Shown piece by piece: positions 1,868 to 64,000 of a DNA stretch of 64,000 nt (position 1 is its first letter; each line of letters begins with the position of its first letter). The notes under the pieces were generated by a model. It was given only the letters and a program-made list of their open reading frames with translations, had not been told where the DNA came from and searched no databases. Source of the stretch: Anaerolineae bacterium (lineage in GTDB: Bacteria > Chloroflexota > Anaerolineae > Promineifilales > Promineifilaceae); contig JAMLHW010000003.1 of assembly GCA_023954475.1 (NCBI GenBank), positions 310,001 through 374,000 on the forward strand, read 5' to 3'. A program made the position numbers and the translations under genes.

Positions 1868-3445
1868 GTGAACGACAAAAGTGTGAAAAAAAGGAAAAAC
1901 AGATGGATTTGGGTCGGCATTGGTGTTGCCGTCGTAGTTGGTATACTGTTGGTCGTTTTTGCACGGCAATCGGCGGCAGATGACGAAACGCCGATGATGG
2001 AGACGGTGACCGCCTTTGTCGGCGATCTGTCAGCCAGTGCCAGTGCCAGCGGTCATGTCGCTGCCCGCAGAAACGCCGAACTCTCTGTAGAGCAACCCGG
2101 TATTGTTACAAACGTGCCGGTGCGCGTCGGTGATGTCGTGCAGGCCGGCGCTGTACTCGTTGAACTGGATACAACTGATCTGGCATTCAACCTGGCGTCT
2201 ATGGAGCAGGCATTGCGAGTCCAGGAAGCTAACCTGGCGACACTGCTCAAGTCGGCGTCAGAAACAGATCTGGCAGCAGCGCGTGCCAATGTCGCGGCAG
2301 CGCAAGCCAATCTCGACGATGTGCTCGACGGACCGTCGGATCTCGAACTGGCAGTGCAAGAGGCCAATGTGCGTTCGGCCGAAGCCAATGTCACCAGTTC
2401 GTACGGCAATTTGCAATCGGCGCGGGACGCAATCAGTGATGCGCAAATCGCAGCGGCCGCAGCGCAACTGGCGGCGGCCAAACTGGCACAAACGCAGGCG
2501 CGTCTGGCGAACGAGGACAATCCTACGTACGAAACCGATCAGGCGCTGCGTGATGCCGATGAACAAGTCGCCATTGCCCAGTCGCAACTCAATGAATTGT
2601 TGGACGGCCCGGCTGTCGGTTCGGCACAGGCCGGTGTAACCGCGTCAGCCGCACAGCGCGATGCGGCACAAGCTAATTTTGAGGCGTTTGCTGACGGTGC
2701 GACGGCGACGGCGATTGCGGCTGCCGAAGCGCAGTTGGCGCAGGCGGAAGCAGCGCTAAATGCATTGGTCGACGGTCCTACTGCTGCCGATATCCGTTCG
2801 GCCGAAGCGCAAGTCGAGCAGGCCCGTCTCAACGTCGAAGCGGCACAGGAAGCGCTCGACAAAGCGACGCTGCATGCTCCTTTCGATGGCGTTATCACCG
2901 CAGTCAACATCGCACCGGGTGAATTTGCGTCCGGTGTCGTCGTAGCGTTGACCGACAGCAACAGTCTGGAACTGGTGCTCGACGTTGACGAAGTCGATAT
3001 CGGTGCCTTGGCAGTCGGTCAGCCAGCAGTTATCGCGTTGGAAGCGTGGCCGACTGTTGAAATCGAGAGCGCCATCAACAACATTGCACCCAGTACACAG
3101 AATAACAGCAGCGGTCTTGTCACTTATCAAGTCTATCTCGACCTGGGTGCTACCGATCTGCCGGTGCGTGTCGGTATGACAGCCAACGCGAATCTGATTA
3201 CGGCCAATCGACAGGATGTGCTGCTGGTTGAGAGCCGGGCGATCCAGGCCAATCGCCAGAACGGCACGTTCTCTGTCATGGTGCTTGATGCAGACGGCAC
3301 AACGCGTGAAGTACCTGTCACCATCGGTTTGCGCGACGGCGTTTACACACAAATCACAAGCGGTTTGCAGGCTGGTGACGAAGTCTTAGTAGGCGATTTG
3401 CCGACGTTTGACTTTGACGCCGAGAGTGGACCATTTGGCGGCTAG
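1868..3445 (+). CDS. HlyD-type membrane fusion (adaptor) protein, first copy
   Basis: A periplasmic-adaptor-like subunit of a MacB-type efflux system, 525 residues. I chose the GTG at 1868 because AGGGAG lies 7 bases upstream. The frame extends further upstream, but that part overlaps yjbQ on the other strand. Residues 1-10 are basic, then a single membrane anchor (about 14-30), a lipoyl/barrel half (VEQPGIVTNVPVRVGDVV), and a very long Ala/Gln-rich coiled coil built from repeated units ending in LLDGP or LVDGP. The second lipoyl half (ATLHAPFDGVITAVNIAPGE) and a beta-barrel domain follow. Two TCGGCCGA copies sit in the coiled-coil repeats, read as RSAEA. It is first in an operon with a second adaptor, an ATPase and a permease. 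Confidence 0.85.
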   Translation: MNDKSVKKRKNRWIWVGIGVAVVVGILLVVFARQSAADDETPMMETVTAFVGDLSASASASGHVAARRNAELSVEQPGIVTNVPVRVGDVVQAGAVLVELDTTDLAFNLASMEQALRVQEANLATLLKSASETDLAAARANVAAAQANLDDVLDGPSDLELAVQEANVRSAEANVTSSYGNLQSARDAISDAQIAAAAAQLAAAKLAQTQARLANEDNPTYETDQALRDADEQVAIAQSQLNELLDGPAVGSAQAGVTASAAQRDAAQANFEAFADGATATAIAAAEAQLAQAEAALNALVDGPTAADIRSAEAQVEQARLNVEAAQEALDKATLHAPFDGVITAVNIAPGEFASGVVVALTDSNSLELVLDVDEVDIGALAVGQPAVIALEAWPTVEIESAINNIAPSTQNNSSGLVTYQVYLDLGATDLPVRVGMTANANLITANRQDVLLVESRAIQANRQNGTFSVMVLDADGTTREVPVTIGLRDGVYTQITSGLQAGDEVLVGDLPTFDFDAESGPFGG

Positions 3446-3454
3446 CAGCGTGTT

Positions 3455-3488
3455 AGAAACCGGGTTTTTTCGGAAAAACCCGGTTTCT
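3455..3488. terminator. Perfect 15-bp hairpin with TCGG tetraloop
   Basis: Arms 3455-3469 and 3474-3488 are perfectly complementary (AGAAACCGGGTTTTT and its complement) around a 4-base loop. The hairpin lies between the two adaptor genes, 10 bases after the first stop codon. No U-run follows, so it may be an mRNA-stabilising or partial-termination element rather than a strong terminator. The core AAACCGGG..CCCGGTTT recurs at 41672-41699 and 47683-47709, always at a gene end. Confidence 0.6.
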
Positions 3489-3510
3489 CAGGTCATGAAA
3501 GGAATTAGAC

Positions 3511-5205
3511 ATGAGTAAATCAACTAACAGAAAACGCAGGCGCTGGCCGTGGATTGTCGGCATCATCGCCGCTGTTATCATTTTGGGAGGCGTTTTTGTC
3601 GGTGGACGTATACGGGATGCGCGTGCGCAGCTCACCGAGTTTCAAACAGGTGAAAAAGTGGTCGCGTTTGTCGGTGATCTCGCGTCGACGGCGACAGCCA
3701 GCGGACGTGTTGTGCCGCAGCGCGATGCGACGTTGGCTATGGCGACCAGTGGTCGTGTTGCGGATGTATTGGTCGAGGTCGGCGATGTGGTGCAGCAAGG
3801 CGATATCCTCGTACAACTGGAAACGACGGCGCTACGGCGGACGGTTGACACAGCGGCGCAAAATCTGGTGATTGCCGAGGCTGCGCTGGAAAAATTGCTC
3901 GATGGGGCGACGGCGGCTGACATTGCCTCAGCGCAAGCGGCGGTCAACAGTGCGCAGGCAGCTCTCGACAGTGCAATGAATGGCGCGACACCGCAACAAA
4001 TTGCTGCTTCGGAAGCGAATGTGCGTGCGGCGCAGGCCAATCTGAATGCCGCATATGCCAATTATCAGTCGGCGACTGAGGGGCCGTCTGACGCTGACTT
4101 GATCTCGGCCGAATCCAATCTGCAAGCGGCTGCTGACCGTCAACTCGCTGCCCGGCGCGCTCACGAAGCGGTGCTAACTTGTACCGTCATCGATTTGCCG
4201 GGCGGCGGGACACGTGAATTTTGCGCCGAAGACGAACAGATCGAATTGGCTGAAGCCAACGCCATCGCCGCCAACGCTGAATTGGCAGCGGCTCAGGCGC
4301 AGTACGATGCGGTCGTTTCCGGTGCTGCGCAGGGCGCAATCAATGCGGCGTCGGGCAGTATCGCGGCGGCGCAGGCTAATTTGGAAGCGGCTCAAGCCAA
4401 TCACGAACTATTGCTGCAGGGATCGACGCCTCCTCAAATCGCATCGGCCGAAGCGCAACTGGCACAGGCACAGGCGACGCTCGAAAATGTATTGAATGGC
4501 GTTTCGGCCGAACAGATCACCATCGCCGAAGCGCAAGTTGAACAAGCCCGCATCGCCTTGCAGAGCGCAGAAAACAATCTCGCCAAAGCGACGTTGGCAG
4601 CGCCATTTGACGGCATCGTGACCGCCGTTTATGTGACCGAGGGCGAAGCAGCCGCCGGCCCTGTCATAGCGCTGATTGACCGCGACAGCATGGAGGTCGT
4701 GCTCAGCGTCGACGAGGTTGATCTGGCGACATTGGAGCTGGGCCAGGAAGCTATCGTCACGCTGGAAGCCTTTCCCGACGTGGAAATCGACAGTGCCGTT
4801 ATCGCCATTGCGCCTGTCAGCCAACCGGGCGAGAGTGGACTGGTCAGCTACGACGTCAATCTCACTCTGATCGAAACGGATTTGCCGTTGCGTGTCAACA
4901 TGACAGCCAATGCGCAGTTGATCACGTCTGATCGCGAAAATGTTTTGCTCGTGCCCAACGCAGCCATCACCGCTGACCGCACGACCGGGAAATATTACGT
5001 CAACCGCGTTGCTGAAGATGAACGGCTGGGCTTTGAACAGGTCGAAGTCACGGTCGGATTGCGCGACAATCGCAACACGGAAATCACCAGTGGTCTCAGC
5101 GCCGGGGATGAATTGATTGTCGGCACATTGGATTTGACCGGCCCATTCGGCGGCCCCGGACCTGGCGGCGGGCCTGGTGGCCGCGGCCCGTTTGGAGGTG
5201 GTTAA
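3511..5205 (+). CDS. HlyD-type membrane fusion (adaptor) protein, second copy
   Basis: A paralogue of the preceding adaptor, 564 residues. The N-terminus is basic with a membrane anchor at about residues 13-32, followed by the first lipoyl half ([16 protein letters not shown]). The expanded coiled coil has at least five repeats of the form (L/M)(L/N)(D/N/Q)G(A/S)T..QIA.AEA..AQA. The second lipoyl half is [20 protein letters not shown], then a barrel, and a Gly/Pro-rich tail at about 545-564. AAAGGAATTAGAC precedes the ATG. GGAGGTGG at its 3' end serves the next gene, whose ATG lies 2 bases after this stop, indicating one transcript. Three palindrome copies fall in the repeats. Why the operon needs two adaptors is unclear; they may form mixed hexamers. 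Confidence 0.87.
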
Positions 5206-5207
5206 TC

Positions 5208-5954
5208 ATGGTAGCACAAACGATACCTGCAACGATGCAGGCACGGTCACACAACGGACGCATGATCGAGTTGACCAATATCACGAAAGCGTATGCGATG
5301 GGAACGCAGACGGTGCATGCATTGCGCGGTGTCAACGGCACGATTGATCGCGGCGAGTTCATCGCCATCATGGGACCATCCGGCTCAGGTAAAAGCACAT
5401 TGATGAATATCATTGGCTGTCTCGACACGCCCACAGCAGGCACGTATATTCTCGACGGTGTCGATGTCAGTGACATGACCGATGATGAGCAGGCGCGGAT
5501 TCGCAATCGCATGGTCGGCTTTGTTTTTCAGCAGTTCAATCTGTTGCCGCGTACGACTGCGCTCAAGCAGGTTGCATTGCCGTTGATGTATGCCGGTTTC
5601 GGCCGAAGTGAGCGATTGGAGCGGGCAAAAGCCGCACTGGAACAGGTGGGTCTCGGTGACCGCATCGATCACAAGCCGGATGAGTTGTCCGGTGGTCAGC
5701 AGCAGCGCGTGGCCATTGCGCGAGCATTGGCGACTGAGCCAAGCATCATTCTGGCCGATGAGCCGACCGGAGCGCTTGATACGCAAACAGGTGAAGATAT
5801 TATGGCGCTCTTTCAGGAGTTGAACGATCAGGGCATCACCATTGTCATGGTCACACACGATCCGGAAGTAGCACAATGCGCCCAGCGCACGATTCAGATT
5901 CGCGACGGCTTGATTGTCGATGATGGACGTGGACAGGCGGAAGGTGACGCATGA
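5208..5954 (+). CDS. ABC transporter ATP-binding protein, MacB/LolD type
   Basis: The cytoplasmic ATPase of a tripartite-like exporter, 248 residues. It shows Walker A (GPSGSGKST), the Q-loop in [14 protein letters not shown], the signature LSGGQQQR, Walker B with catalytic Glu ([11 protein letters not shown]), and the H-loop (VTHD). The FQQFNLLPR segment is typical of the MacB/LolD/FtsE subgroup. GGAGGTGG just upstream of the ATG supports the start at 5208; the conserved domain begins at [11 protein letters not shown], about residue 19. It overlaps the permease by 4 bases (ATGA). The substrate cannot be read from the sequence. Related systems export macrolides, peptides or lipids. Confidence 0.93.
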
Positions 5955-7171
5955 ATCTCTCAGAGAGCTTTTTGACGGCGCTCGACGCCTTGCTGGCTAA
6001 TAAATTGCGTGCCGTGTTGACGATGTTGGGCGTGATTATCGGTGTCGCTGCCGTCATTGCGCTTGTATCCATCGGCAACGGCCTTGACGCGTTCATCACG
6101 GGTGAAATTCAGTCGATTGGATCCAATCTGTTGTTTGTAACGACTGATAGCGAGAATAGCGGCGGTTATCCGGCACTCAGTCTGGACGATGTTGAAGCGT
6201 TGTCCGATCCGTTTAATGCGCCGGCGCTGGCTGCGGTTTCGGCCGAAATCGGCGGTCAGCAGGAAGTGATCGCCTATGGCATCAACGAACGCACTGCCGT
6301 TAATGGCGTCACGTACAACTATTTCGATGTCAACAACTACGTCGTTGAACTGGGCAACGGCTTTTTGCAAAGCGACCTGGACACACGTGCCCGCGTCGCC
6401 GTCATCGGCCCGGAAATCGCCGAGACCCTGTTCGGCGACACCTTTCCCATCGGGGAGTCGGTTAAAATTGGCGGTGTCTCCTATGAAGTGATCGGCGTTA
6501 CGGAAGCGAAAGGCGAATCTGTCGGCAGCAATCCCGATACGACGATTTTCGTCCCGTTGTCAACGGCGCAATCGCGTCTCTATCCGCGACGTACCCGTAC
6601 CGGCGAACGCGCCATCAACCTGATTACGGCGCAGGCGGTCAGTGAAAACCAGACCGATGCGGCCATCGAGCAGATCACAGAAACGTTGCGTGACCAGCAC
6701 GGTATCATCTACGCTTCTGATGATGATTTTACTATTATTAGCCAGACAGCGTTGCTCGAAAGCTTCAGCGCTATCACCGCGACGTTGACGTTGTTTCTCG
6801 GCGCCGTTGCCGGTATCTCACTCGTCGTCGGCGGCATCGGCATTATGAACATCATGCTGGTCAGCGTCACGGAGCGAACGCGTGAGATCGGTATTCGCAA
6901 GGCAATTGGTGCGCTGCGCCGCGATATTTTGCTGCAATTCCTGATCGAATCGGTACTCCTGAGTTTAATCGGCGGCATTATCGGCATCGTTCTCGGTGCG
7001 AGCGCGGCGTTTGCCTTGAGTAATTTTCTCGGTGAGTTGGTGCCGACGGTTGACCTGGGCACAATTGTGATGGCGACGTCGTTTGCGACGGCTGTGGGTG
7101 TCATCTTTGGCTTGTATCCGGCGTGGCGGGCATCCAATCTTCGGCCGATTGAAGCGCTGCGTTATGAATAA
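5951..7171 (+). CDS. MacB-like ABC permease (FtsX family)
   Basis: A 406-residue permease with the MacB plan: an N-terminal membrane helix at about 18-40 ([22 protein letters not shown]), an extracytoplasmic MacB_PCD domain of about 200 residues, and three C-terminal helices. The last three carry the family motif [28 protein letters not shown] and end with [17 protein letters not shown]. Its start codon overlaps the stop of the ATPase gene, so the two are translationally coupled. It should form a dimer with the ATPase and work with the two HlyD adaptors encoded upstream. Palindrome copies lie at 6239 and 7141. Confidence 0.92.
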
Positions 7172-7230
7172 CCACATTGTTGCCGTAATTTACCGATGCC
7201 CAGCCAAATTCCGGTACAATCAACGGCAGA

Positions 7231-7701: not shown

Positions 7702-7791
7702 CACAAACAACATTAGTCGGCGGCGTTTTTGAGCGCCGGCTTCCAACTCGGCATAGCTGCGCTCGTGGCAGCGTGTCGTCAAGGGACAACG

Positions 7792-9327: not shown

Positions 9328-9357
9328 AGCAGATTGTCAATCTGCCTAGCGGTCAAA

Positions 9358-11183: not shown

Positions 11184-11206
11184 ATCACGCAACCGGGTGC
11201 AGCTTC

Positions 11207-13352: not shown

Positions 13353-15521
13353 ATGATCAAACGGTTACTCATCTGGACTTTAGCCACTCTCGGAGTATTG
13401 CTCTTAGCCTTCGCTATTTGGGTATTCTGGCCTGAACAAGACAATCTCGATCAGTTGCTCGACTCTGGGGATCTGTACGACGCTGAAATCGTGCGCGACG
13501 AATGGGGTGTGCCGCATATTTTCGGCCGAACCGATGCCGACGCCGCCTATGGCCTCGCCTATGCCCACGCCGAAGACGATTTTGAGCTGATTCAGCAGGC
13601 GTTGCTGGCTGCCCGTGGTGATTTGGCAACCGTGTACGGGCAGGAGGCCGCGCCTAATGATTATCTGGTTGGACTGCTGCGCATCTGGGATGACATCGAT
13701 GCCCAATATGAGAGTGAGATTTCGGCCGAAACACGCGCCGTTCTCACCGGCTATGCGGCCGGCATGAACCAGTACGCCGCGCTGCATCCGGACGAAGTGA
13801 TACCCGGCATTTTCCCGGTCAACGGCAAAGATGTGGTCGCAGGCTTTGTCCACAAAACGCCGTTTTTCTACGGTCTCGATGGGGTGGTGGGCAGCTTGTT
13901 TGGCCCGGAACGGCCTCAGCCGGTAGCGACAAAATCGGCCGAATTACCCCAGACCGTCCGCTACGGCTCCAATACGTTTGCCGTCAGTCCGACCCGTTCG
14001 GCCGATGGTGAGACATTCCTGGCGATCAACTCCCATCAACCGTGGACCGGCCTCGTGGCGTGGTATGAAGCCCATGTCACCAGTGAAGAAGGCTGGAACA
14101 CCACCGGAGCCCTGTTCCCCGGTGCGCCCGTTCTGCTCGTCGGCCACAACGAAAATCTGGGTTGGGCGTTTACCGTCAATTCGCCCGATCTCATCGATGT
14201 GTTTGTACTCGACATCAATCCTGACAATCCCAATCAATACCGATTCGACGGCGAATGGCGCGATCTGGAAGTGCGGCAGGTTCCCATCGAGGTCAAATTG
14301 ATGGGACGATTGCGCATTACGGTCAATCAGGAAGCGTTGTGGTCGGTTTACGGTCCCACCGTACGACAGGATCACGGCGTCTACGCCATCCGCTACGCCG
14401 GCATGGGACGCGTTGATTTGATCGAGCAATGGTATCGTATGAACAAAGCCCAGTCGTTTGCGGAGTGGCACGACGCAATGGCGGCAGGGCCGCTGCCGAT
14501 GTTTAACGCCGGTTACGCCGACCGCGAAGGCAACATTTACTACGTCTATAACGGGCGCATTCCGGTGCGGGCTAAAGGGTACGACTGGGAACTGTTCCTG
14601 CCCGGCGACACATCGGAGACGCTGTGGACGGATTACTTGCCCTATGATGAGTTACCGCAGGTGCTCAATCCAGCCTCTGGCTTCGTACAAAATGCCAACA
14701 GCACACCGTTCCAGACGACGATTGGGCCGGACAACCCTGATCCGGCGCTGTTCTCGCCGACATTGGGTATTGAAACCTACATGACCAATCGGGCGCTGCG
14801 GGCGCTGGAACTGTTCGGCGCGGATGATTCAATTACGTTTGACGAATTTGAGGCGTATAAATGGGATATGGCGTATTCGGCCGAATCGGACATCCCTGAA
14901 CTGATCGCCGCCTTGCAAGCCGCGCCGCTACCTGACGACCCGGATGTGCGTGCCGCCATCGAACTGCTGGGTGAATGGGATTTGACCGCCGACCCGGATG
15001 ACACCGCCACAGCGCTGATGATTCTGACGCTCAATTATCTCAACGAGCAGGACGACGTGCCGTTTAACGCGACGAGACTCGTGGGCAACGATGCCGTACC
15101 TGTGGATGTGCTGCTGGCCGGATTGACGGAAGCGGTGGCGACTTTGCAAGCGCATTTCGGCCGAATCGACCCGCCGTGGAGCGCAGTCAACCGACTCGTG
15201 CGTGGCGACGTCAACATCGGTCTCGGTGGCGGCCCTGACGTGTTGCATGCCATTTACGGCGACTTTCAGGACGAGGACGGCACATTCCACGGCATTGCCG
15301 GCGACAGCTACGTCGCGTTAGTGACATGGGATGCAGACGGCACGGTGTCGTCACAAAGCATTCACCAGTTTGGCAGCGCCACCGCTCGCCCCGATTCACC
15401 CCATTTTGCCGATCAGACACCCCTCTTCGCCGCCCGCACGCTCAAACCGGTCTGGTTCACAGAAGCGGATGTTCGTGCCAATGCTGAGCGCACGTATCGG
15501 CCAGGAGAAGAAGTGGAATAG
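13353..15521 (+). CDS. Penicillin acylase family (Ntn) hydrolase
   Basis: A 722-residue N-terminal-nucleophile hydrolase. A membrane segment at residues 5-26 suggests export or anchoring. The alpha-part motif RDEWGVPHIFGRTDADAAYGLAYAHAEDD is typical. The expected autocleavage point is YG/SNTFAV at residues 205-206, so Ser206 would become the free N-terminus of the beta chain. LINSHQPW-type sequence follows (FLAINSHQPWTG), and GHNENLGWAFTVN matches the substrate-pocket region. Family members cleave beta-lactam side chains, acyl-homoserine lactones or other amides; the natural substrate cannot be told. Seven palindrome-rich sites make it one of the densest genes. Confidence 0.9.
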   Translation: MIKRLLIWTLATLGVLLLAFAIWVFWPEQDNLDQLLDSGDLYDAEIVRDEWGVPHIFGRTDADAAYGLAYAHAEDDFELIQQALLAARGDLATVYGQEAAPNDYLVGLLRIWDDIDAQYESEISAETRAVLTGYAAGMNQYAALHPDEVIPGIFPVNGKDVVAGFVHKTPFFYGLDGVVGSLFGPERPQPVATKSAELPQTVRYGSNTFAVSPTRSADGETFLAINSHQPWTGLVAWYEAHVTSEEGWNTTGALFPGAPVLLVGHNENLGWAFTVNSPDLIDVFVLDINPDNPNQYRFDGEWRDLEVRQVPIEVKLMGRLRITVNQEALWSVYGPTVRQDHGVYAIRYAGMGRVDLIEQWYRMNKAQSFAEWHDAMAAGPLPMFNAGYADREGNIYYVYNGRIPVRAKGYDWELFLPGDTSETLWTDYLPYDELPQVLNPASGFVQNANSTPFQTTIGPDNPDPALFSPTLGIETYMTNRALRALELFGADDSITFDEFEAYKWDMAYSAESDIPELIAALQAAPLPDDPDVRAAIELLGEWDLTADPDDTATALMILTLNYLNEQDDVPFNATRLVGNDAVPVDVLLAGLTEAVATLQAHFGRIDPPWSAVNRLVRGDVNIGLGGGPDVLHAIYGDFQDEDGTFHGIAGDSYVALVTWDADGTVSSQSIHQFGSATARPDSPHFADQTPLFAARTLKPVWFTEADVRANAERTYRPGEEVE

Positions 15522-27305: not shown

Positions 27306-29075
27306 GGCTCTCCCAACTTAAACGTGATCATGGCGGCTGATAAAGCACGCGCAGGCGGAGAAGATCAAAGTTGGCGCGACCGTACATTTGGCGCTTAATC
27401 AATTTGAGGCGATTGACCTGACCTTCCACTTGACCTTGACTCCACGATAGCGAAAGTCCATTCGAGACAGCCGCATAATCATTTCTCAAACCGTTGGCGA
27501 ACCCGATTAGCGGTCCGAAGTTGGCGATGTCGACATCGTTAAGCCATGGGTCAAGTAGGGACGCTGTGCGTTGCTTTGTCATCTGAAGAAAGCGCTTGAC
27601 AAGCGAGTCAAGAGTAACGAGCTTTGGGGCGGCCGCTAACAGACGATCACGCATCGCGATCTCATCCGCTTGTAGATGAACTTGCTCCCTGAACAGCAAC
27701 CACGATGCTTTCACAGCAGAAACCGGTTTTGGCTTGCGTTGTCGGGCAAGAAACGGTTTCATATCGGCCGTTTGGCGTCGAGCAAGACGAACGGCAGGTG
27801 GCAACTGCTGCCGCTTCTTAACTGCCCAATCGGAAACCAATCCACGAGAGCCTGAGAAGCCAAGCGTTTGAATATCACGGAACAGTTGACTCGCATTGGT
27901 ACAACCGGCCAGCCATTGCTCCTCAAGATAAGGAATATACGGTTTGAGTTTGCGATAGTAACTTTCTGGCGACCGATCGTACTGTGGGCAGGTATCCACT
28001 GCCAAGTAACGTTGCACGGTTCGATAGGTGAGGTGTGTCCGACGCTCAATTTCGCTAATTGTATACCCCTGCTGCCGCAATGCATGCACTTCATCGAAAC
28101 GTGCCCGTCGACGTGCCTGCCGCTCGACTTTCTGCTGTTCGACCTTTGTCAGCGGAATAGTGGGTGGTTCGGGAACGGATGGTAGTGCATCGGTACTTTG
28201 TGTCGGTGTTGGCTCTGGTAGCGGTGGTGTCGCGGCTGCCAACCGTGCGGCCGGATATGCATCGAGCACCATTTCCACTGCTTCGCGCAAATTCTTGAGC
28301 AAATGCCAGCGGTCGGCAACAATCGTTGCTTCCGGTAACGCATCAACAATCGCCTTGATATATTCACGACCGCGGTCACGACTGATAATCTCAATACCGG
28401 GATGACTCTTCAACCATGCTGCGACGGTCTCGCTATCCCGTGTTGGCAGCAAGTCAACCGGCTGATGGGTTTCGAGGTCAACCAAAATCGTGCCGTAGTG
28501 ATGGCCCTTGCGTTTGGCCCAGTCGTCAATTCCCAACACGGTCGGCACGCCAATCGTTTCTGGCGACCAGTGACGAACTCCTTTGATGAGCGTGGTGGCG
28601 CTCACTCCCATTCCTTGACGCGTCAATGTCCGCCTGGCCGCCTCGCCTCCAATCTCAAGTGTTGTGGCCGTTTGAATCTCGACTAAGCGGTCGGTCCGTC
28701 GCATTCTCGGCCGCAGCAACTCCCTAAATTGCTCGGCGAAGGTCACTTTGCCACATGTTTGATTGTCGCAGAAATAGCGTCTCACTCGGAGCAAAAGGCG
28801 AACCTTTCGACCCAAACAAGGTAAGTCACCTGGATGGCGTGTGTAGCTTGAGTGCTGTCGCTGACTTTCTACGCCACAATTTGGACATATTCCACTGGTG
28901 GCAATCCCATATAATGAAAAGTGGACCGATTCTTCGTCCACAATTATCTGCCGTATGCCGATCCGTCGTTCGGCTGAAAACAACAATTCCATCAACGGCC
29001 TGCTCCTTCTCAAAGCCGTTGATTATTGTCGTTTTCTTGTCATTCCGCTCCTTTCACGTTTAAGTTGGGAGAGCC
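27306..29075 (-). mobile_element. Complete ISL3-family insertion sequence, 1770 bp
   Basis: The terminal inverted repeats are 22 bp and perfect: 27306-27327 and the complement of 29054-29075, beginning GGCTCTCCCAACTT. The flanks carry an exact 8-bp target duplication GCGAATTG (27298-27305 and 29076-29083), the size usual for ISL3 elements. The element holds one transposase gene on the minus strand and contains no TCGGCCGA (only the variants TCGGCCGT and TCGGCCGC), unlike the host DNA around it. It should be mobile. Confidence 0.95.
27328..28992 (-). CDS. ISL3-family DDE transposase
   Basis: A 554-residue transposase. The N-terminal zinc-finger-like region has Cys pairs in CPNCG and FCDNQTCGKVTFAE. 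The DDE domain shows the first Asp in GIDDWAKRKGH, the second in ISRDRGREYI, and the Glu in SQGQVEGQVNRLKLIKRQMYGRANFDLLRLRVL near the C-terminus. An internal helix-turn-helix (GYTISEIERRTHLTYRTVQRYL) lies near residue 335. I chose the ATG at 28992, with AAGGAG 10 bases upstream; a TTG at 29013 is an alternative. It fills almost the whole element and appears intact. Confidence 0.95.
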   Translation of the reverse strand: MELLFSAERRIGIRQIIVDEESVHFSLYGIATSGICPNCGVESQRQHSSYTRHPGDLPCLGRKVRLLLRVRRYFCDNQTCGKVTFAEQFRELLRPRMRRTDRLVEIQTATTLEIGGEAARRTLTRQGMGVSATTLIKGVRHWSPETIGVPTVLGIDDWAKRKGHHYGTILVDLETHQPVDLLPTRDSETVAAWLKSHPGIEIISRDRGREYIKAIVDALPEATIVADRWHLLKNLREAVEMVLDAYPAARLAAATPPLPEPTPTQSTDALPSVPEPPTIPLTKVEQQKVERQARRRARFDEVHALRQQGYTISEIERRTHLTYRTVQRYLAVDTCPQYDRSPESYYRKLKPYIPYLEEQWLAGCTNASQLFRDIQTLGFSGSRGLVSDWAVKKRQQLPPAVRLARRQTADMKPFLARQRKPKPVSAVKASWLLFREQVHLQADEIAMRDRLLAAAPKLVTLDSLVKRFLQMTKQRTASLLDPWLNDVDIANFGPLIGFANGLRNDYAAVSNGLSLSWSQGQVEGQVNRLKLIKRQMYGRANFDLLRLRVLYQPP

Positions 29076-33763: not shown

Positions 33764-34282
33764 TATGCCGCTCCGCAGGGATTGTGATGATTCTTATAGT
33801 GTAGCATGAAAGGTGACATACTTCACTGTGGACTGAGACGTTGTACTCGACTGATTTCCCAAAGAATCGGCCGATTTCTGCAATTTTGCCCTAATGATTG
33901 CCTATGGTTTTAGATTGCAGTATGATGCCCGACCGGTCGTTATTCGGCCGAACAAGTCCTCCAGCTTTTAGTGATTTACTTTTGCAGTACCATATCTAGA
34001 TTCGGTGCGACAGGCGAACAACTTCTTTAACGAAAGAACGTTTTCATGCAAACAGCACATCAATGAATTCGCACAGCTTCAACTGGCTGACATAGCTAAT
34101 TCTGTTGATAGAACGCATTCAGTTTTGCTTTACTATCAATTGTGGAGGTAAACATTATGATCAGGGCATAAGCCCATTACACCATTTAGCATGAATCTTA
34201 TGGAAAATGTTGGAGCACATGGTCAAGTTGCTTCGACAACGCGCTTGAACTGTTGACGAGATAAATGTATACGAGGGAAAAA
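33764..34282. other. Intergenic region with two palindrome copies and a minicistron
   Basis: About 520 bases between ettA (leftward) and the secreted protein (rightward). TCGGCCGA copies lie at 33867 and 33944, only 77 bases apart. At 34144-34171 a strong GGAGG is followed 8 bases later by a four-codon reading frame (Met-Ile-Arg-Ala-stop). No clean -35/-10 pair with 16-18 base spacing was found for the rightward gene. Confidence 0.45.
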
Positions 34283-57715: not shown

Positions 57716-58032
57716 GTATTGATAGGAATTCGGCCGAACACTTTCTATAGCATCAGCGACGCCACCCCAGTCTTTCACTGCTGACAACTTGCCGATTGCG
57801 CTACAGACGTAATCGGCAAGTTGTCATTTAACGTGGCCAGTGGCATGCTCTACCGGACGAATTCCATGATTCGTCAGATCGGATAGCGTATATCGACGTG
57901 AGGTGAAGATGAGGAACAGGCGCTTTGGCTGAATAAACTCTCCAGGTTCGTTGTATGCTCAGAAAGAGATTGTGTTACAACGATACACGAGCGGATAACG
58001 CCTTTAGTCAAACGATTTCCCCAGGAACCACT
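57716..58032. other. Intergenic region before carbonic anhydrase
   Basis: About 317 bases. It holds a TCGGCCGA copy at 57730 and the 16-bp hairpin at 57782-57826. The remainder (57827-58032) must contain the carbonic anhydrase promoter; I see no near-consensus pair there. Confidence 0.5.
57782..57826 (+). terminator. Perfect 16-bp hairpin after the DUF6069-like gene
   Basis: Arms 57782-57797 (TGACAACTTGCCGATT) and 57811-57826 are perfectly complementary with a 13-base loop. Only three T residues follow, so it may stabilise the mRNA end rather than terminate efficiently. Confidence 0.7.
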
Positions 58033-58659
58033 ATGCTTTCACCTACAGATGCCCTTGAACGTCTGCGTACAGGCAATCGCCGGTTTGCTTCAGAAATGCG
58101 CAGCCACGATCCACTCGTTGGACGTGACCGCCGCGCCGAATTGCTCGCCGGTCAAGCGCCGTTCGCCATCATCCTCGGCTGCTCTGATTCGCGTGTTCCG
58201 GCTGAGATCGTCTTTGATCAGGGGTTGGGAGACTTGTTCGTCATCCGCGTGGCAGGCAACATCATCGCGCCGTCGCTGGTCGGCAGCGTCGAGTTTGCGG
58301 CAGAGCAGTTTGGCACGCGCCTTGTCGTGGTTCTCGGCCACACCAATTGCGGCGCGGTGACGGCGACGCTGGATGAATTGGAACGCCCGTCAGGTAGTCG
58401 CTCGCCTAATTTGCGTTCGATTGTCGATCGAATTCGGCCGACTGTTGAAGAACTGCGCCATACTGATCTATGGCACGACCGGCCGACGCTACTCCACTAT
58501 GCAGTTCGCGCCAACATCCGCGCATCGGCCGCTCAACTGCGGCACGGTTCGCAAATTCTGGAACATCTCATTGCGCACGAAGGGCTGCTCATCGTCGGTG
58601 CAGAGTATTCGCTGGAAACGGGACTGGTCGATTTCTTTGACGAAAACGGACGCAGCTAG
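58033..58659 (+). CDS. Beta-carbonic anhydrase
   Basis: A 208-residue zinc enzyme that interconverts CO2 and bicarbonate. The metal and catalytic residues are in ILGCSDSRVPAE (Cys, Asp, Arg) and VLGHTNCGAV (His and Cys). The length and the FVIRVAGNI motif are typical of the bacterial beta class. I chose the ATG at 58033, with CAGGA upstream; the frame extends 26 codons further in unlike sequence. It converges on the ligase gene. A palindrome at 58434 is read as IRPTV. Confidence 0.94.
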   Translation: MLSPTDALERLRTGNRRFASEMRSHDPLVGRDRRAELLAGQAPFAIILGCSDSRVPAEIVFDQGLGDLFVIRVAGNIIAPSLVGSVEFAAEQFGTRLVVVLGHTNCGAVTATLDELERPSGSRSPNLRSIVDRIRPTVEELRHTDLWHDRPTLLHYAVRANIRASAAQLRHGSQILEHLIAHEGLLIVGAEYSLETGLVDFFDENGRS

Positions 58660-58701
58660 AGACAGAACGACACGAACCAATTTGGTGCGATTCGGCCGAA
58701 A

Positions 58702-59895
58702 TCAATCCCAATCGCGTAAATCCAGCATGCCTGGCGCACCCGCTTCGATTTCGTCTACATAGGCAATGGCGTCAACGCCAACGCGACACGCCTGCGCAAT
58801 TGTTGCTTTGAGCACCTCAGTTTTATCCCGGTGCATTGTCACAATCCGCACCACAAACTCGTCCCGCGCCTCCGGACGCGTCACCACGCCCTGTATCGCC
58901 GTAAACGGCACAACTTGACCGGCGGCGAATCGCAGTTGGTTGGGATGCACAAACATGCCGCGCACTTTGACCGCCTCCCCTTTGCGCCCGACCAGCATCA
59001 GCGCCCGCTCCTCTTGCCGGCTCGTACCCGGATTCGGGTCTACATTGACTGCCATATCGCCTGTTCCCAGCCGGATCAATGGATAAGCACGGCTGAAATT
59101 GGTCACGACTACCTCGCCGACCTCGCCCGGCCCTACGCATTGTCCCGTATCAGAATCGACGATCTCGATAACCGGCTCGGGCAACAGGTGCATTGCCATG
59201 CCGCCGTCTGTGTTGAGAGCCAAAAAACCCAATTCGGCCGTTGCGTAGCCGTTGCCGACCGCAATGCCGTACTGTTCGACAAGCCGCTGACGCCAACTGG
59301 CCGCCAGTGGCTCGGCTGTAAACAGCGCCTTGCTCACCTTGTAGGCAGGCTTAAACAGTTCGCCGCTTGCTTCCGCTTTTTCGATGAGCTGCTGTAAAAA
59401 ACTAGGTGTGCCTACATAGCCAGTGACGCCCAACGTGTGCATCATCATCAATTGCAAATCGCTGTTGCCTACGCCGCCGGGCACGACCGTGCAACCCAAT
59501 TGGGTCAGGGCAGCATCAAGTGTCAAACCGGCCGGTACGAGATGGTACGATAATGTATTGAGCACAATATCATTGGCTTCAAAGCCACACTGACGCAGCA
59601 CCTGCACGATAGTATCGAGCGACCCGCTGTCATGTTCCGTTTCCGGCTCGTACAGTGGGCCGGGCGAAAAGAAGATGTGTCTGATTTCATCCGGCGACAC
59701 GGCGAGCAGGCCGCCAAAAGGTGGATCGGCTTGCTGCATCCGGATGACGTCGTCTTTGGGCAGGACAGGTAGTTTTTGCAAATCGGCGACTGTCTGAATA
59801 TCGGCCGAATTGACACCAACTGCATCAAAACGCACCTTCGTTGCCGGACTGTGGGTATACGCATGTTCAATTTGGCGTCGCAAACGTGTGGTCAT
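58702..59895 (-). CDS. Phenylacetate-CoA-ligase-like adenylate-forming enzyme
   Basis: A 397-residue AMP-forming enzyme of the PaaK group. GYVGTPSFLQQLIEKAE, the AMP-site GNGYATAELGFLA, GEVGEVVVTNFSRAYPLIRLGTGDMA and VGRKGEAVKVRGMFVHPNQL are typical. It is somewhat shorter than standard PaaK (about 430). The Ser/Thr/Gly-rich P-loop is weak (FSPGPLYEPE in place of SSGTTG), which may indicate an altered activation step or a changed substrate. AGGAGG precedes the ATG at 59895. It follows the LysM-CAP gene by 28 bases on the same strand. Confidence 0.8.
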   Translation of the reverse strand: MTTRLRRQIEHAYTHSPATKVRFDAVGVNSADIQTVADLQKLPVLPKDDVIRMQQADPPFGGLLAVSPDEIRHIFFSPGPLYEPETEHDSGSLDTIVQVLRQCGFEANDIVLNTLSYHLVPAGLTLDAALTQLGCTVVPGGVGNSDLQLMMMHTLGVTGYVGTPSFLQQLIEKAEASGELFKPAYKVSKALFTAEPLAASWRQRLVEQYGIAVGNGYATAELGFLALNTDGGMAMHLLPEPVIEIVDSDTGQCVGPGEVGEVVVTNFSRAYPLIRLGTGDMAVNVDPNPGTSRQEERALMLVGRKGEAVKVRGMFVHPNQLRFAAGQVVPFTAIQGVVTRPEARDEFVVRIVTMHRDKTEVLKATIAQACRVGVDAIAYVDEIEAGAPGMLDLRDWD

Positions 59896-59923
59896 CGTTT
59901 CCTCCTGGGTTGTGTGACTGGGT

Positions 59924-61231
59924 TTAGCGGGTGCGCACTGCCATGGCGACTGCGCCGCCGGCCAGCAGCACAAAGCCGACAGCCAGGGCGACGATGCCAA
60001 CGCTGATGCCGCCGGTCGGTTCAGCCGCAACCGGTTCCGGTGTCGGCACGGTTGTCGGTACAATGGCAGCGATCACTTGAGTTGGTGCGAGGGTGGGTTG
60101 AGCCGGTTCGGCCGCTATTGTCGATTGCACTGTGGGTATGGGTGTTGTGGTGGCGGTGGGAGCGATGACCGGTTTCGGCCGAATCCACAATTCATCGCCC
60201 ACATGCAGCAAAGCACTCGCCTCCAAATTATTGTACGCCAGCAACTCGTCCAGCGACAGCCCATAATTGATCGCAATCGCCCACAATGTCTCACCCGACG
60301 CGACAAAATGCGTCAATTGCGGCGTCGGAGTTGGCGGTGGTGTTTCACCCGGCAGCAAGCGCACTCTCAATTCGCGACCCGGCTGCAACACCACATCGAG
60401 ATCAATGCCGTTGAGCCAGAGTAACTCCGGCATTTCGAGGTCGTAGAGGTACGCGATGTACCATAGGTTCTCACCTTCCTGCACAATATGTGACGAGGGT
60501 GGCGTCGGAGTCGGTGGCGGCACCCAATCATCGGGTGGCCTGACCAGGATTTCTTGGCCATTGATGACAAAATCACCATCGCTCACATTGTTGATCTGCA
60601 TCAGGAAATCGAGATCGACATCATAATAAGCGGCGACTGTCCACAACGCCTGACCTTGTTGCAGTACATGGACAATCGAGCCGTCTTCACGCGGTTCGGC
60701 CAGTGTGATCGGTGTAACGCGTAACGGAGCAGGCTCATCGGCGGGGACGCTGCCCAGAATCGGTGCCGGTTCGCCGGATTTGTGGCCGATAACGAGGGTA
60801 TAGAAGTTCTGATCGTGCCCCTGTGCGAAGCCGATGCCGCCGTCGACGTGCTGCGTTGCCAACATGTTTTGCAGGTGAACGGCGCTGTTTTCCCACCAGA
60901 GAACACCACCGCGCGGACTGAGTTTGGTGCCGCCAACGACGTTTTCTGAAACGCGGCCGAAGTAACCTTGTGCTTCTGCCCGGCTCAAAGGCGTGGAGCC
61001 ACCGTAGCCGCTATGTGAATAGACGTTGTTTTCGGCCATGTAGTTGGACTGGTTTTGGGCGGCAGCGGCCAGTTGACCATTCCACTGAAACGGCGGCAAG
61101 CCGTTGCGGGCGCGTACTTCGTTGACTAGCCGAAACATCTCGGAGGCAGGATCACCTTGTGCCTGTATCGGCCGAAAAGTTGACGCGATCACTACTCCGA
61201 GCAAGATCAAAATGGCTAACGGACGGCGCAT
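59924..61231 (-). CDS. Secreted or membrane-tethered CAP-domain protein with three LysM repeats
   Basis: A 435-residue protein. After the signal peptide (about 1-25) comes a CAP/SCP-like domain at about 30-150 (EMFRLVNEVRARNGLPPFQWN, AENNVYSHSG, GRVSENVVGG, HLQNMLATQHVDGGIGFAQG). Three LysM repeats follow at about 180-225, 240-285 and 300-348 (for example IVQEGENLWYIAYLYDLEMPELLWLNG), separated by Pro/Thr linkers. A C-terminal Thr/Pro region and a membrane helix (about 408-430) complete it. LysM repeats bind N-acetylglucosamine polymers, so it probably sits on the cell wall. Start chosen at MRRPLAIL (61231), as the upstream 27 residues are not signal-like. Confidence 0.87.
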   Translation of the reverse strand: MRRPLAILILLGVVIASTFRPIQAQGDPASEMFRLVNEVRARNGLPPFQWNGQLAAAAQNQSNYMAENNVYSHSGYGGSTPLSRAEAQGYFGRVSENVVGGTKLSPRGGVLWWENSAVHLQNMLATQHVDGGIGFAQGHDQNFYTLVIGHKSGEPAPILGSVPADEPAPLRVTPITLAEPREDGSIVHVLQQGQALWTVAAYYDVDLDFLMQINNVSDGDFVINGQEILVRPPDDWVPPPTPTPPSSHIVQEGENLWYIAYLYDLEMPELLWLNGIDLDVVLQPGRELRVRLLPGETPPPTPTPQLTHFVASGETLWAIAINYGLSLDELLAYNNLEASALLHVGDELWIRPKPVIAPTATTTPIPTVQSTIAAEPAQPTLAPTQVIAAIVPTTVPTPEPVAAEPTGGISVGIVALAVGFVLLAGGAVAMAVRTR

Positions 61232-61378
61232 AGTGCGCCTACTATAACCCGTCCGCACCTCGTTACAAGGTGCGCACCTTATTTCTCCGCATCTGCTGAG
61301 GAAATTTGTCATAAATGCGCCATGTTATAAACTGCTCAACGTCTGGCATGCTTCCTTTCCATCATGTCCACGACCCCG

Positions 61379-61489
61379 TATAATTACTGATTAGCACATG
61401 GCGATTCATGCGCAAACCAAAATTGACATGCAGATTACAGTATAGTTTCTACCACCGGCAGCACACCATATGCCGGATGCCGAGGCATC
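61379..61489 (+). promoter_or_regulatory. secA upstream region: possible promoter and SD-sequestering hairpin
   Basis: TATAAT at 61379-61384 is a consensus -10; TTCCAT 16 bases upstream is only a weak -35. Just before the start codon, GATGC (61476-61480) and GCATC (61485-61489) pair around CGAG. The stem-loop places the GAGG ribosome site in and beside the loop, ending at the base before the ATG. It could tune translation of secA, as leader structures do in other bacteria by different means. Confidence 0.4.
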
Positions 61490-64000
61490 ATGTTCAAAAA
61501 ACTCGTAACAAAAATTATTGGGGATCCCAACCAGAAGATTCTCAATGAACTGCAAGAGATCGTTGACGAAGTCAATGACCTGGAGTTGCAAATCCAGAAG
61601 ATGAGCGCGGAGCAATTGCGCGACCGCACCTATGCACTGCGCGAAATGGTTCAGGCAGGCACTGACCTTGAAGATGTGCTGCCGGAAGCCTTTGCCATGG
61701 TGCGCGAAGCGTCGGTGCGTACGACCGGGATGCGCCACTACGACGTGCAGATCATGGGTGGTATCCTGTTGCACCGCATGAACGTCATCGAAATGCGCAC
61801 AGGTGAAGGTAAAACGCTGGTCGCCACCTTGCCGTTGTATCTCAATGCGCTGCCCGGCCAGGGTGCGCATCTCGTAACGGTTAACGAATATCTGGCGCGT
61901 CGTGACGGCGGCTGGATGGGTAGCATCTATCATTACTTGGGTTTGTCGACAGCCGTCATTGGACCGCAGCAATTCTCCGCCATTTTTGACCCCGATTATG
62001 TCAATCCCGGCGCTGATCTGGAAGATGAGCGCCTCGTTCATTGGCGGCCCTGCACGCGTACCGAAGCATATCAGGCCGACATCACGTACGGTATCAGTAG
62101 TGAATTCGGGTTCGATTACTTGCGCGACAATATGGTCACCAATGCAGAACAGTTGGTGCAACGCTCACATTATTTTGCCATCATCGATGAGGTTGACAAT
62201 GTGTTAATCGATGAGGCGCGCACCCCGCTGATTATTTCTGGCCCTGCGCCGCGTTCCGGTAAGGATTACGCCCGTTTCGCCGACTATGTGCGCGGTTTGC
62301 GTGAGAACACAGAGCCTGAGGATATGCCGCCCGATGGTGACTATGATATTGACCACAAAAGCCGTTCCATTACGCTGACTGAAATCGGCATCGCCGAAAT
62401 CGAACGCCGTGTTCCGGAAATTGATCATGAAGGTGGCGATAGTCTCTATGATCCGCGTTTCTATCATCTGACCTACTATCTCGACAATGCGCTCAAGGCG
62501 CAATACATGTTCCATCGCGACAAAGAATACGTCGTGAAAGATGGCGAGGTCATCATTGTTGACGACTTTACGGGTCGTTTGATGCCGGGTCGGCGTTATT
62601 CAGACGGTTTGCACGAAGCGATTGAAGCCAAGGAACGGGTTGAAATCAAGCGGGAAACGGTTACGGTCGCGACGATTACACTGCAGAATTACTTCCGCAT
62701 GTACGACCAATTGGCCGGAATGACCGGTACGGCTGTCACTGACGCGGAGGAATTTGATAAATTTTACTCGCTGGGTGTTTTCCCGCTGCCGACTAATGTC
62801 GAGTACATCGTCGAGCGTACCAACCGTGGTCTCGTTGAGCAGCGCATAAAGGAAGACGGTGCTGAAAAAGTGACGTATCTCGATCCGAAGACGCAGGAAC
62901 CTGTATTTTTCAAGCGTGTGGATTATAAGGATCAGGTTTACAGTACGCTGGAAGCGAAAGACAAGGCGATTCTGGAAGAGATCGAGCGGGTTCACACACA
63001 GGGTCGGCCGATTCTGGTTGGTACGACGTCGGTCGAGCATTCCGAACAAATAGCTGAATCACTCAAGCGCCGCAAAATGAAATTTAACGTCCTCAACGCC
63101 AAGATGCATCAATCCGAAGCGTTGACGGTCGCACAGGCGGGACGGCGCGGTGCTGTGACGATCTCAACCAATATGGCTGGTCGTGGTACGGACATTTTGC
63201 TCGGCGGTAACGCCGAAGGTCTGGCGGCGGAAACACTTGAGGCGGAAATGTTTGACCGCAATGCGCTCAAGTTGTTGGCGAAAACCTGGCAAGTGGATGG
63301 TGAGGAAGCGGCCAGAATTTCGGCCGAAAACAATCCCAAACTCAAACCTGAATTGGTCGATGCCCTCATCGCTGTCAAAACCGAGTTTGACGACGCGATG
63401 ATTGCCATTGACGAGCAGACAATGACTGGTTATCTGTCGCGGCGTATGCAAGAAGATTACAATGTCGATTTCAGCCACATTCGCCAGGTCATGCGGCGTG
63501 TACAGGCCAATCAGCTGCAAGAAGCCCGTGAATACCTGGCTGAACTGGATGTCGATATGGCTATGGTAGAAGACATCACGCGCCTGCAAGATATGTACAG
63601 TCGCTACCAGATGGCGCGGCAGCATGAGCTACATATCGCCAATTTCCTCGGCGATATGTTGTTCGAACGCCATTACAATGCGCGTGCAGCGCTGATCCGT
63701 TCAACTTTAGGCGGTGATCTCGACGAAGCTCAACGACTGACCAAGACAATTCCAGCACTTGAAGAAATGTGGATCGACCGCATTCTGCAAATCAAGAAGG
63801 ATACGGAGGAAGAACGGCGCAAAGTATGGGAGTTAGGTGGCTTGCATGTTGTCGGTTCAGAACGGCATGAGTCACGCCGTATTGACAATCAGTTGCGTGG
63901 TCGTGCAGCGCGTCAAGGTGACCCTGGTTCGTCCCGCTTTTTCCTATCCCTGGAAGATGATTTGATGCTCCGTTTCGGTGGTGAGCGACTCAACAACTTC
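61490..64000 (+). CDS. secA: Preprotein translocase ATPase SecA, 3' end beyond the window
   Basis: The motor of Sec-dependent protein export. The 837 codons present are open to the right edge. Walker A MRTGEGKT is at about residues 102-109, the Walker B region is IIDEVDNVLIDEARTPLIISG near 230-250, and the preprotein cross-linking and DEAD motor 2 motifs include GTTSVEHSE, TNMAGRGTDILLGG (about 560-575) and RIDNQLRGRAARQGDPGSSRFFLSLEDDLM (about 800-830). Between LLGGNAEG and ELGGLHVVGSERHESRR there are about 200 extra residues, much longer than the about 35 residues of the E. coli protein. The start at 61490 has GAGG 4 bases upstream. The C-terminal domains lie outside the window. Confidence 0.95.
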   Translation, partial: MFKKLVTKIIGDPNQKILNELQEIVDEVNDLELQIQKMSAEQLRDRTYALREMVQAGTDLEDVLPEAFAMVREASVRTTGMRHYDVQIMGGILLHRMNVIEMRTGEGKTLVATLPLYLNALPGQGAHLVTVNEYLARRDGGWMGSIYHYLGLSTAVIGPQQFSAIFDPDYVNPGADLEDERLVHWRPCTRTEAYQADITYGISSEFGFDYLRDNMVTNAEQLVQRSHYFAIIDEVDNVLIDEARTPLIISGPAPRSGKDYARFADYVRGLRENTEPEDMPPDGDYDIDHKSRSITLTEIGIAEIERRVPEIDHEGGDSLYDPRFYHLTYYLDNALKAQYMFHRDKEYVVKDGEVIIVDDFTGRLMPGRRYSDGLHEAIEAKERVEIKRETVTVATITLQNYFRMYDQLAGMTGTAVTDAEEFDKFYSLGVFPLPTNVEYIVERTNRGLVEQRIKEDGAEKVTYLDPKTQEPVFFKRVDYKDQVYSTLEAKDKAILEEIERVHTQGRPILVGTTSVEHSEQIAESLKRRKMKFNVLNAKMHQSEALTVAQAGRRGAVTISTNMAGRGTDILLGGNAEGLAAETLEAEMFDRNALKLLAKTWQVDGEEAARISAENNPKLKPELVDALIAVKTEFDDAMIAIDEQTMTGYLSRRMQEDYNVDFSHIRQVMRRVQANQLQEAREYLAELDVDMAMVEDITRLQDMYSRYQMARQHELHIANFLGDMLFERHYNARAALIRSTLGGDLDEAQRLTKTIPALEEMWIDRILQIKKDTEEERRKVWELGGLHVVGSERHESRRIDNQLRGRAARQGDPGSSRFFLSLEDDLMLRFGGERLNNF

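Follow-up and report, generated by a model that had tools for sequence, protein, structure and literature searches.

Highly iterated palindromes (HIPs) are known from cyanobacteria, where HIP1 (GCGATCGC), described in 1995 as cited in the HIP1 literature, is a GC-rich palindrome with a hexamer core ending in CG and an outer pair of bases. According to Elhai (2015; PMC4390886), cyanobacterial HIPs reach 500-2500 copies per Mb, deviate mostly at their outer positions and are sporadically replaced by another palindrome, such as TCGATCGA in a few strains; the role of HIP1 is still called a mystery there. The DNA uptake sequences of the Neisseriaceae form eight dialects around a conserved CTG core that follow phylogeny, with 943-5918 copies in the named genomes and some family members lacking the motif (Frye 2013, PMC3630211), and the uptake signal sequences of Haemophilus, for which an uptake bias is known, are described as occurring about once per 1000 bases, accumulating by drive and being less frequent in new DNA (PMC7811141). 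Here we describe a palindromic octamer, TCGGCCGA, in a 64,000-nucleotide stretch of an Anaerolineae (Chloroflexota) genome (GCA_023954475.1, contig JAMLHW010000003.1, positions 310,001 to 374,000; referred to as the window), together with its counterparts in the same bacterial family. It is a HIP-class element in a phylum for which we found no such report in the openly licensed literature searched: no paper on over-represented or iterated palindromes in Chloroflexi or Chloroflexota was found among openly licensed PubMed Central papers, and among the matches listed there for TCGGCCGA the topic of over-representation was not found.

The window contains 90 exact copies of TCGGCCGA, compared to a mean of 1.8 and a maximum of 6 in 100 dinucleotide shuffles. 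A sequence-only reading of the window had estimated about 90 copies with one or two expected by chance, about 46 extensions to the 10-mer TTCGGCCGAA and about ten single-base variants at the last position, and the exact counts agree, with 46 of the 90 copies extended and 10 such variants (5+2+3). The octamer tops all 8-mers of the window, where the runner-up palindromic octamer has 8 copies and other outer forms are represented by two copies of GCGGCCGC, one of CCGGCCGG and none of ACGGCCGT. Its single-base variants lie at the first or last position in 19 of 35 cases, and the base next outside the octamer is T at a frequency of 0.67 and A at 0.26 (135 sites of the source genome). The source genome, G000 (in our labels G denotes a genome, g a genus and L a locus or contig, each with a number), comprises 5,120,153 bases in 26 contigs and holds 7668 copies compared to 125 of the reversed-word control, which corresponds to 1498 per Mb and to a 78-fold excess over composition. 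Two results had been named beforehand as refuting the observation, an expected frequency outside the window and an equal excess of GCGGCCGC, and neither was obtained: the excess is genome-wide, and GCGGCCGC has 75 copies in the genome (control 345). ACGGCCGT likewise remains below its control (85 versus 410). As the sequence-only reading had stated, copies lie in genes and in spacers: simple gene calls made in this analysis place 78 in coding DNA (1.37 per kb) and 12 in spacers (1.66 per kb). The parallel it drew to HIP1 holds for a GC-rich palindromic octamer, for the density of about 1500 per Mb, which lies within the HIP-class range of about 500-2500 per Mb, for the coding and non-coding spread and for the deviations at the outer positions. 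The element is not HIP1 proper, as its core is CGGCCG and its host one of the Anaerolineae. That the enrichment is a genuine, genome-wide and family-wide HIP-class element we regard as practically certain.

Copies of TCGGCCGA, ACGGCCGT and GCGGCCGC were counted in 118 whole genomes (G000, 51 further family members, 4 genomes of the order and 62 of the class), and CGGCCG in 296 genomes of the class. The family set comprises 52 genomes including G000 from 22 genera. Apart from the exceptions given below, CGGCCG is the common core in this set, and the outer pair varies, being T..A, A..T, G..C or none dominant. The octamer ACGGCCGT dominates in 28 of the 52 genomes (437 to about 2100 per Mb), TCGGCCGA in two (G000 and, with 1207 per Mb, G031) and GCGGCCGC in one (G013, 12,040 copies). 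A CGGCCG excess without a dominant outer pair characterizes 14 genomes, namely G016, five of genus g6 and eight of the GC-rich genus g4; seven of them were sampled (G003, G005, G016, G023, G025, G037, G046), two counted as whole genomes (G035, G041) and five (G043, G045, G048, G050, G051) assigned to this hexamer class by genus and octamer counts. The excess is weaker in g4, where the CGGCCG/GCCGGC ratio is 2.57, 1.52, 1.69 and 1.12 in four counted genomes. CGGCCG is about 5-fold enriched in the three genomes of genus g20 (samples of 3.4-19 kb), and among the family genomes sampled no excess was seen in G008, G020 and G027. G010 carries a different palindrome, with 3665 copies of TGCCGGCA (about 916 per Mb) compared to 14 of ACGGCCGT; 15 TGCCGGCA but no CGGCCG excess were found in a 13.8-kb sample. 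In the class table, 15 of the 20 genomes from this family have at least 2.5-fold more CGGCCG than the reversed control GCCGGC; of the 276 genomes outside the family none does, the highest ratio there being 2.42 as read from the table by eye.

The outer pair is T..A at 117 of 150 CGGCCG sites in 84 kb of G000, A..T at 45 of 71 in G001 and G..C at 31 of 35 in G013, and it is spread broadly in the samples of G016, G037, G046, G025 and G005; the bare hexamer of G016 attains a density of about 5 per kb. In an rpoB tree of 20 genomes, G000 groups with G031 and G016 (support 100/100), and even genus mates differ, with TCGGCCGA in G031 and the bare hexamer in G016. The dialect labels are clustered on this tree, requiring 6 changes compared to a mean of 9.7 after shuffling, and none of 200 shuffles gave as low a number. 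From HIP1 of the cyanobacteria the element differs by its phylum, its core and an outer pair that depends on the lineage or is not dominant. Cause and ancestry of HIP1 are hard to separate because a single sequence is common to most cyanobacteria; in the present family, 22 genera have the same core with one of three outer pairs, with none dominant, or no palindrome at all, and these natural gain, loss and switch events allow tests of any candidate gene. The conserved family core, the dialects following phylogeny, the roughly one to few thousand copies per genome and the family members without the motif resemble what is described for the Neisseriaceae (PMC3630211).

Positions in called genes at which the encoded peptide is compatible with the octamer, whichever the frame, were termed permissive sites. 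In 14 sampled octamer genomes, 67-100% of these sites use the genome's own octamer, compared to 4-12% expected from codon use. In G000, 119 of 150 sites are filled (expectation 7.9); of the 80 sites in the SA[DE] frame, 75 are filled. The other values are 94/131 in G031, 40/41 in G001, 12/12 in G009, 14/14 in G021, 70/74 in G047, 24/25 in G011, 25/28 in G012, 9/10 in G015, 15/16 in G017, 27/32 in G024, 20/26 in G040, 8/12 in G018 and 38/44 in G013. Among 252 palindromic octamers tested in G000 the next highest filling was 4/9, and apart from each dialect's own octamer, no other palindromic octamer came anywhere near in G031, G047, G001, G013 and G008. The bare hexamer fills 47-79% of its sites in seven hexamer genomes (expected 7-27%), 28% in G019 (expected 7.5%) and 11-20% in G008, G020 and G027, which equals the codon expectation.

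That the pattern stems from codon use or composition, contamination or an assembly artefact can be dismissed with near certainty. Such an origin could be read from the 54 of 78 coding copies in the window that share the single frame SA[DE], but spacer density is at least as high as coding density, filling exceeds the codon expectation as given above with nothing comparable for other palindromic octamers, and the same phenomenon recurs with other outer pairs in relatives that were assembled independently, among them the records JADLAX01 and JACTMP01.

The filling is partly self-made because the palindrome creates its own peptides. In the G000 sample only 5 SA[DE] sites are unfilled, and amino acid composition alone predicts about 20 such peptides. 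Tripeptides from 402 genes (145,602 amino acids) of G000 were ranked by excess, blind to the palindrome. SAE (331 occurrences; 47 expected from amino acids, 80 from dipeptides) ranked first and SAD (157; 49 and 72, respectively) second, and in G031 SAD was first and SAE second. TAV ranked first in the ACGGCCGT genomes G024 (124 versus 20) and G047 (129 versus 17), in which SA[DE] occurs at 0.9 of expectation. In the small G013 sample, AAA (28 versus 7) was second after a rare tripeptide seen once. The palindrome thus adds amino acids and shifts tripeptide use, by an amount large enough to tell the octamer dialects apart from protein sequence. Coevolution of uptake sequences with proteomes is the title of a paper cited in PMC7811141, and a word search of the main text of PMC4390886 found no analysis of permissive-site filling or of phage copies for HIP1.

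Conservation was determined from reciprocal best matches at identical permissive peptides; an earlier comparison from rpoB to fusA alone had few independent sites and is superseded by this set. Independence of the pairs cannot be assumed (138 reading frames with 1117 distinct core sites), and as six-frame frames of at least 150 amino acids were used, some stretches of DNA may have entered under several frames. Of 686 core sites compared between ACGGCCGT genomes, 498 are retained, whereas other 6-mers are retained at 202 of 1166; between hexamer genomes the numbers are 208 of 293 and 38 of 229, respectively. Where TCGGCCGA genomes have the core, hexamer genomes also have CGGCCG in 30 of 32 cases. 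A signature of Vsr-like C-to-T repair was rejected, as no single variant class is emptied.

Some phage DNA also carries the palindrome. A viral collection was scanned for contigs with three copies close together, which yielded 14 contigs for ACGGCCGT and 6 for TCGGCCGA; at least 80 loci from a scan for GCGGCCGC were ranked and are not part of the evidence. Four of the former hold 21-49 copies (2.5-3.7 per kb), a density biased upwards because these contigs were chosen by copy clusters; none of the latter has more than 7. The four dense contigs use the octamer at 113 of their 122 permissive sites, and TAV occurs 42 times in them compared to 5.5. One contig, L282, carries portal, terminase, head and protease genes, and its terminase (best 80 of 378 relatives) and head protein (5) led to 85 loci chosen regardless of the palindrome. 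The query contig, represented by the overlapping loci L295 and L375, has 71 and 64 ACGGCCGT in about 21 kb each; the 71 copies in the 21.3 kb of L295 amount to a 126-fold excess over composition, and the avoidance expected of a restriction target is not seen. The relative nearest to this contig, L322 (74% identical over 253 residues), which is free of the selection by clusters, has 22 copies in 5.9 kb. Two related phage contigs thus carry ACGGCCGT at 3.3-3.7 per kb, and the remaining 82 of the 85 loci have at most 2 copies each. From the dialect we infer that the ACGGCCGT phages live in this family. The presence of the palindrome in some phage genomes, which distinguishes it from HIP1 as described, is a fact that any explanation must cover. 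Partition genes are present on L276 and L287, which may be plasmid-like. As a separate observation, L298, a GC-rich viral contig found as a terminase relative, has 7 copies of the HIP1 octamer in 6.5 kb, about 26-fold over composition.

The natural logarithm (ln) of enrichment over composition is 4.36 in G000, 4.22 in G031, 4.50 in G001, 4.56 in G047, 4.54 in G024 and 4.13 in G013, a range of 4.1-4.6 over six genomes and three dialects, and 4.84 and 4.90 in L295 and L322, with the genome sizes of the relatives rounded in the source tables. The force is measurable (ln enrichment about 4-5) and acts on synonymous and on some non-synonymous positions. The similarity of host and phage speaks for a biased DNA process rather than for selection that scales with population size, as a fitness effect of the latter kind would hardly be equal in phages and hosts; this is an argument and not a proof. 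Our preferred though tentative reading is that a HIP-class element is kept by recognition-coupled, site-by-site drive. TCGGCCGA would be the local dialect of a family-wide HIP with the core CGGCCG, and the whole palindrome would be read as a unit by a putative symmetric, probably dimeric, DNA-processing factor. If this factor were coupled to repair, recombination or conversion, perfect sites would be more easily gained or less easily lost than near-matches. The bias would act at every position and on all DNA long resident in the cell lineage, and its equilibrium could be the about 60- to 130-fold enrichment of chromosomes and some phages, with most amino acid-permissive sites filled and some protein change. 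Over evolution the factor would retain its core and change or lose its outer-pair specificity. A wider version, in which the family enforces a palindromic self-signature on all resident DNA via a symmetric reader with drifted dialects that tells perfect sites from near-matches, occupies almost all sites permitted by coding and pulls protein sequence along, and HIP1 is another dialect group of the same kind, appears speculative and on the whole unlikely to us; if true, lineage-specific dialects could act as barriers between lineages.

Several observations weigh against the drive. Neither a reader nor any gene tracking the presence of the palindrome was found, and an identical equilibrium would result from functional selection if its strength were alike in every genome. 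The palindrome-coded tripeptide leads in none of the hexamer genomes G016, G037 and G023. Between TCGGCCGA and ACGGCCGT genomes the core is retained at about the rate of other words or slightly above: 7 of 74 from ACGGCCGT to TCGGCCGA genomes (other words 17/203) and 7 of 46 in the opposite direction (other words 17/231), so that TCGGCCGA and ACGGCCGT mostly occupy different places. In G000, core variants with one changed base are rarer than expected from a Markov model, an expectation that is itself uncertain, and such depletion is predicted by neither simple gain nor simple protection. The phage evidence comes from few contigs whose hosts were assigned by dialect. Finally, spacing is mildly over-even in both TCGGCCGA genomes, and a purely local bias does not predict evenness.

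The sequence-only reading had claimed an even spread of about one copy per 700 bases. The mean gap in the window is 685 bases, and in 400 kb of another G000 contig copy numbers in 2-kb bins are mildly over-even (variance/mean 0.73; null 0.81-1.21) because pairs closer than 100 bases are in deficit (54 of 635 gaps). The coefficient of gap variation of 0.957 lies within the null range of 0.927-1.072. Evenness beyond random was not seen in G024, G047 and G023, and even spacing as a general property was rejected, being confined to the two TCGGCCGA genomes. A hairpin or larger inverted repeat was also rejected, since arm pairing showed no excess in five sets, and G-rich flanks out to 15 bases were set aside by reasoning as mostly a codon-phase effect.

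The strongest rival to a drive coupled to recognition within the cell is a DNA uptake sequence that marks self DNA for transformation and accumulates by biased-uptake molecular drive, with dialects as in the Neisseriaceae, which we consider possible but doubtful. Uptake sequences are described as fewer in newly acquired segments and fairly even, with molecular drive alone being sufficient (PMC7811141). The cored dialects, the like density, the enriched tripeptides, the mobile gene pair without copies described below and the mild evenness in two genomes are parallels. The uptake function is demonstrated in the Neisseriaceae and would be hypothetical for the present element, which some phage contigs carry; two of these are denser than the hosts, although a resident prophage could gain copies by transformation. 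To our knowledge, the known DNA uptake motifs are asymmetric. The motif described here is strictly palindromic including its outer pair, as in the 117 of 150 sites given above.

Selection for a bound site, which could be a nucleoid organizer, a segregation mark or a Chi-like signal sparing host and phage DNA from degradation, seems unlikely, although the strong conservation within dialects, the filling of most permissive sites, the phage contigs that fully carry the ACGGCCGT dialect and the mild evenness in two genomes would agree with it. Each extra copy would have to be worth alike in coding, spacer and phage DNA, also directly beside the next one, as in the gaps below 100 bases, and at the hexamer density of G016. 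Chi, which is named in PMC4390886, is likewise a short over-represented self word. The element described here is a palindrome. Chi is asymmetric, oriented and sparser.

Elhai (2015) linked HIPs to a methyltransferase of the core cytosine together with mismatch repair directed by the G-methylcytosine (G-mC) step, yielding up to about one site per 1000 bases. In favour of such a model, all cyanobacteria with highly over-represented sequences are stated to have at least one putative matching methyltransferase (PMC4390886), an N4-methylcytosine (m4C) enzyme for GGCC is described in Synechocystis (PMC6604393), and enzymes of the 5-methylcytosine (m5C) and m4C/N6-methyladenine (m6A) types are predicted in G000. 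These comprise one PF00145 enzyme, two PF02086 enzymes, one of them beside an EcoRV-like nuclease, and six PF01555 matches at five places, the latter with a split frame and one enzyme of type III among them. Of the core variants, the near-match that has T instead of C at position 2 (TTGGCCGA, ATGGCCGT) is the least depleted in G000 (41 compared to 49 expected) and in G031, and it ranks third in the ACGGCCGT set; such a pattern would arise if a methylated outer cytosine decayed, which is a weak lead. PF00145 is, however, missing from 11 of 22 family genomes searched, including the palindrome-rich G001, G009, G017, G018 and G040, and PF01555 from 3 of 21 (G005, G008, G020). G005, with 25,568 CGGCCG, has neither, which recent loss or incompleteness (the genome is 94% complete) could explain for one genome.

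Proteins from the fetched methyltransferase loci, and not every PF01555 match, were grouped by single linkage at an identity of at least 35%. The widest groups span 10 genomes (PF01555, octamer and hexamer genomes), 7 (DUF1156-like, including G000 and G031) and 7 (enzymes of 215-771 amino acids). Among the compared proteins, the 10-genome group lacks G000, G031, G017, G018, G040 and G035, and no group found covers all octamer genomes, which the published HIP model would demand; one shared m4C/m6A enzyme as the cause is unsupported. By match pattern and length, the DUF1156-like gene also seems present in G003, G012, G013, G021, G023 and G047, partly in G009 and G027, and absent from G005, G016, G025, G008 and G020. 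It separates the dialects poorly because it is present in the hexamer genus g4, and it remains a lead. In G000 this gene (L095; L264 and relatives elsewhere) lies in two frames, which may reflect a sequence error or a real break. The G000 m5C enzyme was rejected as a shared cause: it is related to enzymes from Yoonia, Flavobacterium, Ignavibacteria and others, and no excess of CGGCCG octamers was seen in the flanks of these relatives. A 79% relative sits in a ACGGCCGT genome. The G-mC model gives the outer pair no reason because GGCC already holds a G-C step; outer pairs of T..A, A..T, G..C or none serve no G-mC signal, and the set point of the model lies below the hexamer densities of 3-5 per kb. 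Taken together, the methyltransferase model appears quite improbable, even if a methyltransferase may belong to another family or have been missed through incompleteness. The interpretation given by the sequence-only reading is thus partly supported: the role as a methylation site found no backing in this survey, and a selfish mutational bias fits best, which we infer rather than demonstrate. What is added to it are the family-wide core with varying outer pairs, the mostly filled permissive sites and the phage copies.

The m5C methyltransferase gene of G000 is followed by a gene for an ATPase (Table 1), and the pair looks like a mobile defence pair. The two genes recur together in Yoonia, Flavobacterium, Ignavibacteria and other hosts, including ones that lack the palindrome. 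In three hosts the pair contains no CGGCCG in 3460, 2878 and 2787 bases, compared to 27 TCGGCCGA in the adjoining 16.5 kb of G000. With a GC content of 38-41%, composition alone predicts only 0.13-0.20 CGGCCG. In G000 the pair has 2 permissive octamer sites, both unfilled, and about 5 copies would be expected at host density. This is modest evidence that the pair arrived late. G000 also holds EcoO109I-like (L090) and EcoRV-like (L097) restriction systems, whose loci have 5 and 2 copies, respectively, flanks included. Together with the empty pair this hints at, without proving, an arrival of copies over time. The 2403-base gap around an ISL3-type transposase of the window has no TCGGCCGA and 4 CGGCCG; it is weak evidence, as it was picked as a gap and two longer gaps of the window cover ordinary hydrolase and ABC-transporter genes.

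Table 1. Positions of the palindrome copies and of genes mentioned in the text (window numbering unless a contig is named).
Feature	Position	Strand	Basis or remark
90 TCGGCCGA copies, first to last base of the set	2375..63327	none	exact match
TCGGCCGA first bases, part 1	2375, 2798, 4105, 4444, 4504, 5599, 6239, 7141, 7450, 7684, 8068		
TCGGCCGA first bases, part 2	8749, 9004, 10503, 10775, 10842, 11259, 11817, 12072, 12399, 13522		
TCGGCCGA first bases, end of set	61168, 63004, 63320		
12 spacer copies	19783, 24758, 33867, 33944, 36521, 39117, 39568, 47633, 50347, 54254, 57730, 58692		
Two spacer copies (33867, 33944)	33867..33951	none	gene calls
Penicillin-amidase family gene, 722 amino acids, 6 copies (2.77 per kb)	13353..15521	+	PF01804, E 2.7e-120
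ISL3-type transposase without TCGGCCGA	27328..28704	-	PF01610
m5C methyltransferase, then GHKL/HSP90-like ATPase	G000:C20:410541-414000 (L098:16541-20000)		36.6 kb beyond the window; ATPase by sequence reading

Some minor observations were made in the same genomes and their relatives. At L092 (G000:C14 near 29 kb), long low-complexity repeat-like frames lie beside a type III modification gene, which is perhaps phase-variable. With 51 and 132 copies, GCCGGC is nearly missing from G013 and G016, respectively, which suggests that this site is strongly avoided. In another genus of the Anaerolineae (G083 and G116 with loci L195 and L196, and G143 from the class table), GCCGGC occurs 134-145 times per 20 kb compared to about 20 expected, an excess that may be another iterated palindrome or a consequence of GC-rich codon use.

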